Of a stretch of DNA of 31,077 nt, positions 1,384 to 31,077 are shown piece by piece. Under the pieces are notes generated by a model. That model was not told the origin of the DNA. It worked only from the letters and a program-made list of their open reading frames with translations, and did no database searches. Made by a program: the position numbers and the translations under genes. Position 1 is the stretch's first letter. Each line of letters starts with the position of its first letter. This stretch comes from a virus, in the IMG/VR virus record IMGVR_UViG_3300007344_000142, positions 1 to 31,077 of that record; one strand, written 5' to 3'.

Positions 1384-1466
1384 AATACGGTTCAAAAAAA
1401 GGCACAAAAAAAGGCACCAAAAAATCTGGTGCCAAAATGGGTTTGGGAAAATATTGCAGTCAGTGA
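1380..1466 (+). CDS. Possible 28-residue Lys/Gly-rich micro-protein
   Basis: The ATG at 1380 overlaps the previous stop (ATGA) and opens a 28-codon frame beginning MKYGSKKGTKKGTKKSG and ending at the TGA at 1464-1466. Coupling and the basic composition, like that of its neighbours, favour translation. Against it, the stretch also holds the terminator hairpin of the opposing cassette, which could by itself explain the Lys codons (A-runs). It is listed as a possibility only. Confidence 0.35.
   Translation: MKYGSKKGTKKGTKKSGAKMGLGKYCSQ
1406..1433 (-). terminator. Intrinsic terminator of the leftward two-gene cassette
   Basis: Read leftwards, the sequence forms a GGCACC/GGTGCC stem (forward coordinates 1428-1433 with 1413-1418) around a 9-base loop, followed at once by seven T residues (forward A-run 1406-1412). 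It lies just past the stop of the 1460-1720 gene, so it would end that transcript before it opposes the late operon. Confidence 0.75.
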
Positions 1467-1720
1467 GTTGTGTTCTTGCCGATGACCTTTAGGGTTGCCC
1501 GCGCTGATGCAACAATACCGCCGCAGCCGTTAGCGTAATAATCGCCGCCCACGTCGTTAGCGTAATCCGTTGCACGGCTTCGCAGTTCTGACAGCGCTTC
1601 GTTTTCTTCGGCGCTGATAAAATAGTGGGTTTTTGTTTCCCTGATAATGGCGGGCGCTTCGCAATCGCACTCAACGTGGTCGATGTAATAGCGCTTCGGA
1701 ATCTTGTATGTGCTTTTCAT
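1460..1720 (-). CDS. Hypothetical protein of the inverted cassette
   Basis: An 86-residue protein. I chose the ATG at 1720 (MKSTYKIPKRYYIDHVE) because a good Shine-Dalgarno (GGAAGGGAG, about 6 bases upstream) precedes it; a longer in-frame start at 1756 lacks this. The middle has C-D-C and a helical stretch (SAEENEALSELRSRATDYAND), and a Gly/Tyr-rich end (VGGDYYANGCGGI). I recognise no family. It is the second gene of a leftward pair that runs against the late operon. Its stop overlaps the tail of a possible micro-ORF on the other strand. Confidence 0.7.
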   Translation of the reverse strand: MKSTYKIPKRYYIDHVECDCEAPAIIRETKTHYFISAEENEALSELRSRATDYANDVGGDYYANGCGGIVASARATLKVIGKNTTH

Positions 1721-1761
1721 TTCGATCTCCCTTCCGGCGGGGCTGTTAAGCCCCACATTGG

Positions 1762-2151
1762 TTAAAAATTAAAATCGTATTTTTTTGCTGGCGTGTCGCT
1801 CATGTAGTAACGGCTGCCGCAAGCGCTTTGCCATCTCATCTTTGCCTTCGACCAGCGCAGCGTAACCAGACGGCCTTCTTCGTCAGGCGAGATGCTCCAT
1901 GCGTTGCGCTGATCTCCGTTGTTTGTGCAATGGCCGGCAAAGCCACCAGAAACAATCTCAGGCTTCCAGCCTTCGGCGCGCTCTGCCTTCATGGCGCGGA
2001 TAACAACTTTGTTCTCAGTGCGAACATCGACAACCTCAAACGGCTCGACATCTGAGTAACCAGAAAAATTTGCAAAAGCTTTGATTGGCTTGTTGCGGGC
2101 GATTGTTTCAGCGTTTCGATTTGCGATGTATTCGTTGTGGTTAAAGGTCAT
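1762..2151 (-). CDS. Hypothetical phage protein, first gene of the inverted cassette
   Basis: A 129-residue protein. The ATG at 2151 (MTFNHNEYIANRNAE) is preferred over 2163 because GGAG lies about 6 bases upstream of it. Residues from WKPEIVSGGFAGHCTNN through to the aromatic/basic C-terminus (RYYMSDTPAKKYDF) resemble a small family of uncharacterised proteins that recurs in phages and mobile elements of aquatic bacteria (family memory, no assigned function). No membrane segment or catalytic motif is visible. The operator-bearing promoter at 2183-2211 lies directly upstream, so the gene is probably controlled with the early or lysogeny genes and not with the surrounding late genes. Confidence 0.75.
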   Translation of the reverse strand: MTFNHNEYIANRNAETIARNKPIKAFANFSGYSDVEPFEVVDVRTENKVVIRAMKAERAEGWKPEIVSGGFAGHCTNNGDQRNAWSISPDEEGRLVTLRWSKAKMRWQSACGSRYYMSDTPAKKYDFNF

Positions 2152-2182
2152 TTTGCTCTCCATTTGTTTAACTCATATGAAG

Positions 2183-2211
2183 ACAATATGCGCATATTTA
2201 CCAATAGTAAA
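2183..2211 (-). promoter_or_regulatory. Leftward promoter with embedded operator (inverted cassette)
   Basis: Leftwards: -35 TTTACT (forward 2206-2211), 17-base spacer, -10 TATTGT (forward 2183-2188). The 14-bp perfect palindrome AATATGCGCATATT (2185-2198) overlaps the -10. The same arrangement is found upstream of 20735, 26626 and 30052, so a shared phage repressor very likely binds here. Confidence 0.7.
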
Positions 2212-2249
2212 GCATAAAATACGCATAAAAAGGAAGTTTCTCAGAAAAA

Positions 2250-20276: not shown

Positions 20277-20380
20277 CTTTTGTCCGCCGAAAATTGCGGA
20301 CACAGCGCCTCTAAGTAAATTCTGGCACATCCATGCCCAAAACAAGCCAGCGGCGTTTTTAGCGTCCAGCATAGGGTTCC

Positions 20381-20442
20381 GATAGCTCCATCATAGCGCC
20401 ATCTTTGAAAGTAAATCGGCCATAGCGCCATCATAGCGCCAA
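20381..20442 (+). repeat. Left-arm direct repeats, CATAGCGCCAT-like (probable integrase arm sites)
   Basis: Copies run in the same orientation. GATAGCTCCAT at 20381-20391 is degenerate; CATAGCGCCAT at 20392-20402 and at 20421-20431 is exact; CATAGCGCCAA lies at 20432-20442. Adjacent copies are spaced 11 bases, about one helical turn. Together with the right-arm copies they flank the tRNA core, as arm-type binding sites of tyrosine integrases do. Confidence 0.78.
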
Positions 20443-20473
20443 CGGATAAACAGCGCAGCAAACCCCCACTTTT

Positions 20474-20525
<52 letters not shown>

Positions 20526-20550
20526 ATATTCAACAAAATCAACAGTTTCT

Positions 20551-20586
20551 AGCCTCGCAAGCCTTCGGGTTTGCGGGGCTTTTTTG
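20551..20586 (+). terminator. Intrinsic terminator downstream of the tRNA segment
   Basis: A 13-pair stem (AGCCTCGCAAGCC with GGTTTGCGGGGCT, two or three G-T wobbles) closed by a TTCG loop, followed by a run of six T. It sits about 26 bases past the tRNA CCA. It may be the host tRNA-fMet terminator carried along, so that an integrated prophage keeps the tRNA transcript ended (inference). It would also block late read-through into the integrase operon. Confidence 0.85.
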
Positions 20587-20602
20587 CGTTTTAGGCCTAT
20601 CC

Positions 20603-20625
20603 CATAGCGCCATCCATAGCGCCAT
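20603..20625 (+). repeat. Right-arm direct repeats CATAGCGCCAT (two exact copies)
   Basis: Exact copies lie at 20603-20613 and 20615-20625, in the same orientation as the left-arm copies and 12 bases apart. They lie on the integrase side of the core, i.e. the P' arm or its equivalent. Confidence 0.78.
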
Positions 20626-20645
20626 CCCGTCAGGTTTTCTTCGGT

Positions 20646-20657
20646 TTATGCGCATTT
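20646..20657. promoter_or_regulatory. Secondary operator copy upstream of the integrase-operon promoter
   Basis: TTATGCGCATTT has the same ATGCGCAT core as the main operators and is only slightly imperfect as a palindrome. A further half-site (AATGCGC) follows at 20658-20664. It lies about 40 bases upstream of the main operator at 20687, so cooperative binding is possible. Confidence 0.55.
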
Positions 20658-20672
20658 AATGCGCTTTTATGG

Positions 20673-20701
20673 TTGCATAATAGTAAATATGCGCATATCT
20701 T
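20673..20701 (+). promoter_or_regulatory. Promoter and operator of the ardA-integrase operon
   Basis: -35 TTGCAT (20673-20678), 17-base spacer, -10 TATCTT (20696-20701). The 12-bp palindrome ATATGCGCATAT (20687-20698) runs from the spacer into the -10. The sequence from the -35 to the operator is nearly the same as at the repressor promoter (26495-26522) and at 2183-2211. Confidence 0.7.
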
Positions 20702-20734: not shown

Positions 20735-21073
20735 ATGACTTATCAAAACAGAATGATTAACCGGATTATTCAACGCGCCGGCGATATAGGCGCAACAGTC
20801 GAGATCGAATATTCAGATTATGGCACGGCGTCAATTGACGTTAATTGGAACGGCAGTTCAACTTGCGCGGGTTTGTTTGTGATAATTGGCAAGCGCGGCG
20901 GCGTTAGATACGGCCAATATAGTGATTTGCTCGATATGTTTTATACGTTTGACAAAAACGCTTCAAACAAGTGGATGAGGGTTTGGGATTTCTTCAAAAC
21001 TGTTGAGCGCCAAAAGAAGCTCACTCTAACGCTAGAAGATAAATTAAACGCACATCGCGGGGCGGCGGCATAA
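20735..21073 (+). CDS. Hypothetical protein, first gene of the ardA-integrase operon
   Basis: A 112-residue protein. The ATG at 20735 follows a GGAGG ribosome site at ideal distance. It is a mixed alpha/beta protein (RIIQRAGDIGATVEIEYSD, then VIIGKRGGVRYGQYSDLLDM) with a charged helical C-terminus. I recognise no family. By position it is an early gene under operator control; such genes next to ArdA often serve as anti-host factors, but nothing in the sequence shows this. Confidence 0.7.
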   Translation: MTYQNRMINRIIQRAGDIGATVEIEYSDYGTASIDVNWNGSSTCAGLFVIIGKRGGVRYGQYSDLLDMFYTFDKNASNKWMRVWDFFKTVERQKKLTLTLEDKLNAHRGAAA

Positions 21074-21098
21074 TGCCCCGCCCGAAAGGGAGATTGAT

Positions 21099-21320
21099 AT
21101 GTTTACTTTTGAAAATCCAAATACGCCCATTATTGTTAGCGGCACAACAGTATCGCACAATGGCAAAAACTTCATTATCACCGCTGGTGTGTTGCAATAT
21201 TTTTATAATGTCAAAATTGATGGTGGCCGCAATCTTGGTTTGGTTTATATGGGCGGTCACGGTCACGATTGGCAAGCTGGCGTAGATGCCGTTGAGACGC
21301 TTATTCGGGCGGCAGCATAA
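21099..21320 (+). CDS. Hypothetical protein
   Basis: A 73-residue protein with GGGAGA before the ATG at 21099. It is beta-rich in the first half (TFENPNTPIIVSGTTVSHNG) and has a His-containing turn, MGGHGHDWQAG, near residues 51-61. A longer-starting overlapping frame (21073-21285) was judged a shadow because it lacks a ribosome site. The stop overlaps the next ATG (TAATG). Function unknown. Confidence 0.65.
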   Translation: MFTFENPNTPIIVSGTTVSHNGKNFIITAGVLQYFYNVKIDGGRNLGLVYMGGHGHDWQAGVDAVETLIRAAA

Positions 21321-21838
21321 TGGAAAAGCTTGTTTTATATGCGCAGCCATACAGCCTTGATGCAGAAGGCTTCTACTTTAGCGACATGGCAGATTATGGT
21401 TTGAAATATTCTGCCAATCGCGACAGCTTCGGCGGGCTTGTCGAGGAATACGAAATCCAAATGATAGACGGCCGCAGTATCGACATCGCTTTTGGGATTG
21501 CGGTAGGTGTCGATCAGGCCAACTTGCATGAATTTTTTAACGCGGTTGACACATGGTCTGATTATGAGTTGCTGCGCGCAACTTTGGCGCACAAGGAAGG
21601 CATCGCGTCAAGCTGGTTTGGCAACGATGCCAGCGCCAGCGATTATGACAATATAATCATTTATGAGGACATGACGTTTGATGAGTTGGCTGAACAGTTT
21701 GTTGACGATGGACATTATGGCGAAATTCCAGAGCCGCTTGTTGGCTTCATTGACTACAAACAAATCGCATATGAGTTGAAGCATAGTTACAGCGAAACGG
21801 AGATTGCTGGCACCAACTACATTTATCAAGCTGATTAG
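21320..21838 (+). CDS. ardA: ArdA-like antirestriction protein
   Basis: A 172-residue very acidic protein. ArdA proteins are elongated dimers that mimic bent B-form DNA and occupy type I restriction-modification enzymes. The family pattern is visible in the start (KLVLYAQPYSLDAEGFYFSD), the EEYEIQMIDG region, and above all the C-terminal part, from MTFDELAEQFVDDGHYGEIP through FIDYKQIAYEL to a final 'IAGTNYIY'. Length fits the family (about 165-180). Being first to enter or early expressed would protect incoming DNA. It lies directly upstream of the integrase in one operon. Confidence 0.85.
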   Translation: MEKLVLYAQPYSLDAEGFYFSDMADYGLKYSANRDSFGGLVEEYEIQMIDGRSIDIAFGIAVGVDQANLHEFFNAVDTWSDYELLRATLAHKEGIASSWFGNDASASDYDNIIIYEDMTFDELAEQFVDDGHYGEIPEPLVGFIDYKQIAYELKHSYSETEIAGTNYIYQAD

Positions 21839-25714: not shown

Positions 25715-25728
25715 ATTATGCGCATAAT
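25715..25728. promoter_or_regulatory. Operator at the recombination operon
   Basis: The perfect 14-bp palindrome ATTATGCGCATAAT, with a trailing half-site (ATATGCG, 25728-25734). Unlike the other sites it lies just upstream of the candidate -35, not in the spacer. It also abuts the end of the repressor gene. Confidence 0.72.
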
Positions 25729-25733
25729 ATGCG

Positions 25734-26330
25734 TTATAGATCATACTTAACCATAACGATCTGATCTACGCTTTCAATGTCGCGGCTGAACTCTAGTTCC
25801 TCTTGTGGGTCTATGGTTTCAATAGCGCAGCCGTCTTTATCAAGCGATGTTAGGATGCCCATAAAGCCCTTTCCATTTTCCCGCACAATAACAAGCGAAC
25901 CGATCTTTGGTTCGATGTTAGGGTTTACGAAAGCCAGATCACCATTTGATATTTTTGGGCTAAGTGCATCGCCGAAACAGAAACAAGCATATGCGTCATC
26001 GACAGCCGCCAAATCTGGCGGACAGTCCACTTTGCTCATCATTTGTTTGCTAAAGTTTAAGCCATCGCCGTCTGGTGATGGAAATCCATAAACCGGCAAG
26101 GTTTCAGCCGGTGCGATGCTGTTAATAACATCCGCGACATATTCTTCTGTGATCTCATTTTGCTCAACGCCAAACGCTTTGGCGAGGGCTGGTTGATGCG
26201 GCGTGATTTTACGCTTGCCGCTTTCTATTCTTGAATATTCTGCTTGCCCGATATTAAGGCTTGAAGCGATATCGGCTTGCCTCTTGCCAGCCATAAGCCT
26301 CAAGCTTTTCAAATTGTTTTGGTATTCCAT
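25734..26330 (-). CDS. Phage repressor, HTH plus S24-like domain lacking catalytic residues
   Basis: About 198 residues from the ATG at 26330 (GAGGCAGG upstream), or 204 from the ATG at 26348; numbering here uses 204. The N-terminal Cro/CI-type helix-turn-helix spans about 12-60 (LKSLRLMAGKRQADIASSLN, then EYSRIESGKRKI). A linker and an S24-like dimerisation domain follow (from PVYGFPSP to the end). At the nucleophile motif, normally G-D/E-S-M-x-P, the protein reads GDALSP (126-131), so serine is alanine. The lysine-bearing strand reads GKGFMGILT, with no obvious catalytic lysine. It is the probable lysogeny repressor binding the shared ATGCGCAT operators. Confidence 0.88.
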   Translation of the reverse strand: MEYQNNLKSLRLMAGKRQADIASSLNIGQAEYSRIESGKRKITPHQPALAKAFGVEQNEITEEYVADVINSIAPAETLPVYGFPSPDGDGLNFSKQMMSKVDCPPDLAAVDDAYACFCFGDALSPKISNGDLAFVNPNIEPKIGSLVIVRENGKGFMGILTSLDKDGCAIETIDPQEELEFSRDIESVDQIVMVKYDL

Positions 26331-26560: not shown

Positions 26561-26588
26561 TTGACTTTACCGTTCATGCGCATATTAT
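26561..26588 (+). promoter_or_regulatory. Rightward early promoter (PR-like) with operator
   Basis: -35 TTGACT (26561-26566), 16 bases, -10 TATTAT (26583-26588): the best promoter in the window. The operator TCATGCGCATAT (26574-26585) overlaps spacer and -10. It drives cro and the replication genes. Confidence 0.78.
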
Positions 26589-30081: not shown

Positions 30082-30110
30082 ATATTATGCGCATTAATTT
30101 GGATAATCAA
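30082..30110 (-). promoter_or_regulatory. Leftward promoter with operator (30-kb unit)
   Basis: Leftwards: -35 TTGATT (forward 30105-30110), 17 bases, -10 TAATAT (forward 30082-30087). The operator TTATGCGCATTA (30085-30096) overlaps the -10 and spacer, as in the other units. Confidence 0.75.
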
Positions 30111-30125
30111 CAATAAATCGCTCAT

Positions 30126-30137
30126 ATATGCGCATAT
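30126..30137. promoter_or_regulatory. Second operator in the 30-kb divergent region
   Basis: The perfect palindrome ATATGCGCATAT, 41 bases (about four helical turns) from the operator at 30085-30096. It lies next to the candidate rightward promoter(s) of the ParB/methyltransferase gene. Confidence 0.72.
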
Positions 30138-30214: not shown

Positions 30215-31077
30215 ATGCGAGACCTCGATGTGGTATGGCATGGCGTTACAGCGCTGACGCCATACGCCAGAAACAGCCGGACGCATTCCGATGAGCAAGT
30301 GGCACAGGTTGCCGCCTCTATTAAGGAATTTGGCTGGACAAACCCTATCCTGATTGATGAGGACAAAAGCATCATCGCCGGTCATGGGCGCCTACAAGCT
30401 GCGCAGCGGCTTGGCGAAGATAAGGTGCCAACAATAACGCTGACAGGCTTAACTGATGCGCAGAAGCGCGCTTATGTCATAGCTGACAACAAGCTGGCGC
30501 TGAACGCTGGTTGGGATGAGGAAATGCTAAAGATCGAAGTCAACGATCTTTTGGGCGAAGGTTTTGATATTGATCTGATAGGCTTTGACCCTGCGGAGAT
30601 AGATGCGCTTCTTGACCATAACGATGAAAATGAAGTCACTGATACGGCTGTCAAAGGCTCGCTATCGGATCGCTTTGGTGTACCGCCATTCAGCGTCATG
30701 TCAGCTCGCGAAGGCTGGTGGCAAAACCGCAAGCGCGGCTGGCTGGCATTAGGCATCAAGAGCGAACTAGGGCGCGGTGATAACGCTGCGCCAAGCGGAA
30801 GCGCAAGGCCTGCAACAGATTACAGCAAGAGCAAGGCTATAGGCGATGGACATGGCAGGGCTATGCCTGAATCTATGCTTGGCAAGACCTACGGCGGTCA
30901 AGACAGGCTGAACGCTTTAATGGGCGGCAAGCCTGACGATATGAACGCCACAAGCATTTTTGACCCTGTTCTTTGCGAACTTGGTTATAGCTGGTTCAGC
31001 CCTAAAGATGGGGTCATTTTAGACCCATTTGCAGGCGGTTCCGTTAGGGGCGTTGTTGCCTCTAAGCTTGGCCGACA
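30215..31077 (+). CDS. ParB-domain DNA methyltransferase (3' truncated by window)
   Basis: The frame opens at the ATG at 30215 (an in-frame TGA at 30203 rules out an earlier start) and stays open to the window end, 287 codons. The N-terminal ParB/Srx-like domain includes PYARNSRTHSDEQVAQVAAS and IAGHGRLQAAQRLG, the nucleotide-binding motif of ParB-fold proteins. A middle phrase FGVPPFSVMSAREGWWQNRK is frequent in phage modification genes. The last visible part has LDPFAGGSVRGVVAS, i.e. motif I (DPFaGsG-like, S-adenosylmethionine binding) of a class I methyltransferase. The catalytic motif lies outside the window. It likely modifies phage DNA against restriction or marks packaging sites. Confidence 0.85.
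   Translation, partial: MRDLDVVWHGVTALTPYARNSRTHSDEQVAQVAASIKEFGWTNPILIDEDKSIIAGHGRLQAAQRLGEDKVPTITLTGLTDAQKRAYVIADNKLALNAGWDEEMLKIEVNDLLGEGFDIDLIGFDPAEIDALLDHNDENEVTDTAVKGSLSDRFGVPPFSVMSAREGWWQNRKRGWLALGIKSELGRGDNAAPSGSARPATDYSKSKAIGDGHGRAMPESMLGKTYGGQDRLNALMGGKPDDMNATSIFDPVLCELGYSWFSPKDGVILDPFAGGSVRGVVASKLGR

Follow-up and report, generated by a model that had tools for sequence, protein, structure and literature searches.

Morons consist of a promoter, one or more genes and a terminator inserted between conserved late genes, are patchily present, and should be active in the repressed prophage. The locus described here, an inverted slot within the late operon of an environmental phage, shares with the morons of lambdoid phages (e.g., HK97 gp15) the promoter-gene-terminator layout and the patchiness, but its promoter carries a phage operator. 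By analogy, the slot appears most like the immI region of P22 and unlike a moron expressed in lysogeny (PMC8022706). Both are variable regions in the late operon; immI is for the most part not covered by the late transcript, and the slot holds seven payload arrangements on the opposite strand. Whereas immI (mnt-arc-ant, sieA) has its own regulators, mnt and arc, and an antirepressor, the site in the slot is that of the candidate prime repressor. P22 sieA is a prophage-expressed gene (PMC10883804), while the slot is predicted to be silent in the lysogen and its genes are joined by linkers.

Two mycobacteriophage systems offer further points of comparison. The SAS/ESAS of cluster K phages is a short conserved element with a Shine-Dalgarno sequence at the starts of many genes (PMC3203893), which sometimes includes the upstream stop codon and in about half of its copies has inverted repeats (PMC3203893). 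The linker of the slot is likewise a short conserved element with a Shine-Dalgarno sequence at the starts of different genes, yet the GGGATAGGAGCCC consensus is unrelated to its sequence, and whereas the ESAS repeats do not support an RNA hairpin, the linker keeps its pairing and has a stop codon placed in the loop of its hairpin. Cluster A phages, for their part, possess operators and stoperators, i.e., repressor sites found genome-wide, also outside the immunity region (PMC9283540). The operators of the phage described here are similarly dispersed beyond the immunity region, but they are palindromes at promoters, whereas the cluster A sites are asymmetric 13-mers, many of which lie between genes to stop elongation.

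The slot and its contents among relatives

The stretch of DNA analyzed, hereafter the window, is the 31,077-bp virus record IMGVR_UViG_3300007344_000142, derived from environmental DNA. Its source is, as read from the sequence, a temperate phage of the short-tailed type. Profile searches recognized a structural set made of portal (phrog_1216), scaffold and major head protein; a tyrosine integrase, a CI/S24 repressor, a Cro-like protein and a replication initiator are also encoded, together with an Erf-like annealase and a RecE-like exonuclease (Table 1). The region 20280-20640 is a probable attP containing a tRNA 3′-end-like stretch with a CAT anticodon arm (about 20470-20525) and about six CATAGCGCCATC repeats on either side (20381-20443, 20603-20626), which are likely arm sites of the integrase. 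No complete tRNA was found at this candidate by ARAGORN, and Rfam and tRNA searches over the whole window gave no match. At 30215-31077, a ParB-like domain occurs with DNA methyltransferase matches in a gene truncated by the end of the window. A portal search in genomes returned three MAG contigs only, none usable as a pointer to the host, and the linker was absent from the genomes of these three contigs.

Table 1. Positions of the main features in the window.
Feature	Position	Strand	Remark
casA, 129 aa, small β-barrel protein, phrog_19789-like	1762..2151	-	first slot gene
casB, 86 aa	1460..1720	-	second slot gene
-35 element TTTACT	2206..2211	-	from the relatives compared
-10 element TATTGT (TATAAT in L028)	2183..2188	-	from the relatives compared
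Inner operator TATGCGCATA	2187..2196		in promoter spacer, touching -10
Outer degenerate operator AATACGCATA, 31 bp from inner	2218..2227		perfect near same position in L043
Intrinsic terminator	1413..1433	-	followed by T-run to 1406
casA-casB linker	1726..1761	-	hairpin core 1736-1754, TAA in loop, then Shine-Dalgarno
Second linker, between first two genes of integrase operon	21058..21093	+	
Integrase-operon operator pair, 41 bp apart	20647..20697		leader paralogous to slot leader
int3, weak ArdA-like antirestriction protein	21320..21838	+	sister slot (integrase operon)
Operator at PL-like promoter (recombination operon)	25717..25726		
CI/S24-type repressor	25734..26330	-	presumed reader of operators
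Operator at PR-like promoter (Cro-like gene)	26575..26584		
Operator pair, 41 bp apart, upstream of ParB-methyltransferase gene	30086..30136		

The original prediction had described a self-contained inverted unit of two leftward genes opposing the late operon. Sequence and comparison bear this out for its genes, promoter, operator and terminator: both ORFs were confirmed and have relatives in viral contigs, and the predicted intrinsic terminator is the best hairpin with T-run of the region (-13.6 kcal/mol, z -4.2), retained in nearly all slot-bearing relatives, with one stem base changed in L030 and a different structure in L043. Among 80 portal relatives, an inverted slot with operator was found only at portal identity of at least 82%, in the same place, in a clade of about a dozen contigs, several of them fragments. 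Nearly all of these share the same leader and terminator; L043, the most distant clade member, has its own leader layout and its own 3′ end. The proposed comparison with relatives lacking the cassette did find such relatives, farther away: the operator is missing from this place in portal relatives at 58-76% identity, whose few leftward TerL-portal ORFs are not this unit, and casA is absent from phage C72C1 (portal 62%).

Instead of the same genes in the same place with late expression in all relatives, at least seven gene arrangements occupy this one site, on the strand opposite to the late operon: casA+casB (window, L026, L110), casA+papL (L027, L005), casA alone (L030), g87+casA+g67 (L028), g87+casB (L029), papL+g52 (L174, L234 and, partially, L197) and g125 (L043). 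The predicted two-gene unit thus holds for the window, but the pair is not fixed, and contents are swapped within a conserved slot. In one case the exchanged segment itself can be delimited: papL of L027 and L234 is 97.8% identical across a block of 413 bp, against 91% for the flank on either side, and this excess of identity marks a recent single-gene transfer of papL. A homologue of g87 (58%) was also seen in a distant portal relative (69%; L040:1631-1906), outside any operator-bearing inverted slot.

Variation also affects the first genes of the sister slot, which precedes the integrase. Its int3 product matches Pfam ArdA at 20.7 bits, under the curated cut-off of 27, and phrog_14321 with an E-value of 9e-4; this ArdA-like gene is retained in several relatives, and the genes preceding it vary.

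The inter-gene linker

The inter-gene linker, an addition to the original prediction, reads GGCGG(C)GGC-TTAACA-GCCCCGCC, followed by a few bases, GGGAG and a start codon. It occurs at two sites only in the window, both in operator-controlled accessory slots. A pattern search of fetched contigs (loci L027-L262), which yields lower bounds, gave at least 105 unique copies in uncultivated-phage contigs; as the loci were partly fetched by the linker search itself, such counts show use, not frequency. Among the matches listed, the TAA of the loop is the in-frame stop codon of an ORF of at least 40 aa in 93 of 105 copies, and an ORF of at least 40 aa follows in 103 of 105. The flanking proteins fall into at least 74 families forming at least 82 distinct pairings, and among the matches listed at least two partners were found for 20 of 38 upstream and 19 of 48 downstream families. 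Integrases, a serine recombinase and HNH proteins are among the linker-joined families, most of which have no known function. Some linker-joined genes look papain/C39-like by eye (L027:6647-7039, the gene after casA in L008, L242:1879-2253), with a DCG or NCGPTA motif and a later His; one matches phrog_3754, and none had a Pfam match. Searched against named phages, the linker query never matched across 80% of its length (best partial E-values about 2-8), and no description of a comparable linker was found in open-access papers.

The hairpin itself is conserved. Among the matches listed, the loop-closing pair is T-A in 85 copies, T-G in 11, C-G in 6 and C-A in 1, a covariation with a Fisher p of 5e-5 when kinship among copies is ignored. 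Among copies with a coding 5′ arm, most have a bulged base, and the upstream protein ends in -AAA (68/93) or -AVA (11/93). In L043, the 3′ arm is shortened to give a perfect stem, and the -AAA codons are retained. The bulge is missing from the six intact linkers in which the arm lies past the gene's own stop codon; five of the six follow casA. Since the bulge is kept where the arm is coding and missing where the arm follows a stop, the C-terminal tail itself may be under selection, a hint drawn from about two independent cases only. The -AAA tail written by the linker might be a ClpXP-type degradation tag that would keep early proteins short-lived, a suggestion less certain than the one that follows for the linker as a whole.

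Near-identical linkers lie between unrelated genes, in many pairings, which exceeds what base pairing needs. We tentatively read the linker as a dedicated modular joint by which uncultivated phages would trade small early genes one at a time, with the repressor-controlled slots, that in the late operon and that preceding the integrase, serving as docking sites for a shared pool. The linker may instead be merely a strong intercistronic stabilizer or translation signal, the swaps arising from ordinary illegitimate recombination and selection; a hairpin with conserved pairing followed by a Shine-Dalgarno sequence is plausible as an mRNA-stability or translation signal, and this somewhat doubtful alternative would be compatible with the slot model set out below.

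Promoter, operators and leader

The slot promoter was defined by comparison of relatives, as TTTACT, a 17-bp spacer and TATTGT in the window, or TATAGT, TATATT or TATAAT in relatives; a consensus promoter scan of the window missed it, and in the window itself it is weak (TATTGT). A promoter had been predicted, with a transcript from 2183. The promoter stands, but because that position marks the downstream end of the -10 element, the transcription start is more likely at about 2176. As had also been predicted, the cassette bears the phage's own operator, TATGCGCATA being identical to the operators flanking cI. The operator core ATGCGCAT has 10 copies in the window vs. 2.6 expected, and 7 of the 10 lie in intergenic DNA, which represents 5% of the window; a Markov model predicts 0.08 copies in that DNA, and a count of seven was never reached in 2000 simulations. 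The seven intergenic copies are distributed among the cassette (one), the integrase operon (two), the PL-like promoter (one), the PR-like promoter (one) and the 30.1-kb promoter (two). Relatives retain the sites and the 41-bp spacing despite diverged flanks, and TATGCGCATA still adjoins cI in loci whose CI is only 50% identical. The distances of 41, 41 and 31 bp come close to whole numbers of helical turns and would fit cooperative binding by CI, whose binding at TATGCGCATA is suggested by position.

The slot operator ends inside the -10 element, with the same geometry as at PR. In all relatives examined except L043, a perfect operator lies in the spacer touching the -10; L043 has a degenerate inner operator and its perfect copy at the outer position. 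This exchange of the perfect copy indicates that both are probably real operator positions. Because the operator sits in the promoter spacer against the -10, repression in the lysogen is expected, and occlusion of the -10 would be its simplest explanation. The upstream location of the perfect site in L043 suggests that CI might also act from there, and this bears on whether the cassette is a moron, as originally proposed. In a true lysogenic-conversion moron, CI would activate from the outer operator and the genes would protect the lysogen through superinfection exclusion or defence. The own promoter and terminator, the location between conserved late genes and the patchy presence all agree with this, as does the upstream perfect operator of L043. 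We nonetheless regard it as unlikely, since the perfect operator has the repression geometry of PR in all other relatives examined, and the CasA relatives of named phages lie among small non-structural-region genes. Nor is the composition of the cassette genes distinct (50.9% GC vs. 49.4% for the window, with a standard deviation of 2.7 points among 690-nt windows). Strictly defined, then, the slot probably does not qualify as a moron. Because the repressor is expected to silence it in the lysogen, a role there in superinfection exclusion or defence is less likely than early host takeover or anti-defence.

The assignment of the palindrome to CI is itself drawn from sequence, and the palindrome could belong to a host regulator, so that the cassette would answer to the state of the host and not to CI. 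This seems quite improbable, as all seven intergenic copies lie at the phage's own promoters, including those on both sides of the immunity region, with conserved spacing.

The slot leader, made of the two operators, the promoter and the 5′ UTR, aligns to the integrase-operon leader of L134 with a score of 49, the shuffled maximum being 23. Its core GGTAAATATGCGCATAT has 11 exact viral matches, 10 in cassette leaders and one in an integrase-type leader. The alignment and the presence of exact core matches in both leader types identify the two leaders as paralogues, one copied from the other, a kinship that also adds to the original prediction. Given this paralogy, silence in the lysogen and early expression are the most likely behaviour of the slot.

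Slot products and model

Relatives of CasA number at least 281 in viral contigs, and 13 named phage records contain a match to it; CasB relatives were found at 18 viral-contig loci. Pfam searches of the cassette genes gave no match, searches of the PDB by sequence and by fold gave no convincing match for either CasA or CasB, and a profile search of cassette proteins recognized no regulator, most of them matching no profile. The CasA model, a helix and a small β-barrel, is of high confidence (pLDDT 93.5), and its strong structural neighbours are phage proteins only, including ones of Itty13 and phage G; the homologues in Itty13 and CRP-901 sit amid small non-structural-region genes. The CasB model (pLDDT 76) had no structural match. 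A second-look structure list for CasA (VIA) contained weak Tudor/MazF-like barrels only (Z < 4). That casA-casB is a toxin-antitoxin pair, on the strength of the MazF chains in this list (Z 2.5-2.9), is very improbable, because such scores are at the level of a common fold, Tudor-type domains score equally, and casA occurs alone in L030 or with other partners and casB with g87. The company of the genes and their control make early host takeover or anti-defence plausible roles for CasA and CasB, given that the sister operon carries an ArdA-like gene.

The locus is probably an early-class, repressor-controlled slot with swappable contents, inverted within the late operon. In the lysogen, the CI/S24 repressor would bind TATGCGCATA in the spacer and keep the slot off, and, judging from the position of the operators, the same repressor would co-silence PL, PR, int and the 30.1-kb promoter. 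Upon infection or induction, the slot would be read leftward to its own terminator, before antisense read-through by the late operon. Its products would most likely act early on the host, in takeover or anti-defence. Over time, linker-joined small genes would be gained, lost and reordered while the frame of the slot stays, most likely by homologous recombination at the linkers and the leader, perhaps driven by the phage's own Erf/RecE pair.

The slot is a concrete case of early accessory genes being placed and exchanged by temperate phages, with a conserved regulatory frame and swappable contents. The linker, which is widespread and merits separate study, may be a joint through which small early genes are traded. 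It makes single-gene exchange among mosaic phages directly measurable, and can be used as a search handle for new small phage genes, probably host-directed, in environmental sequence.
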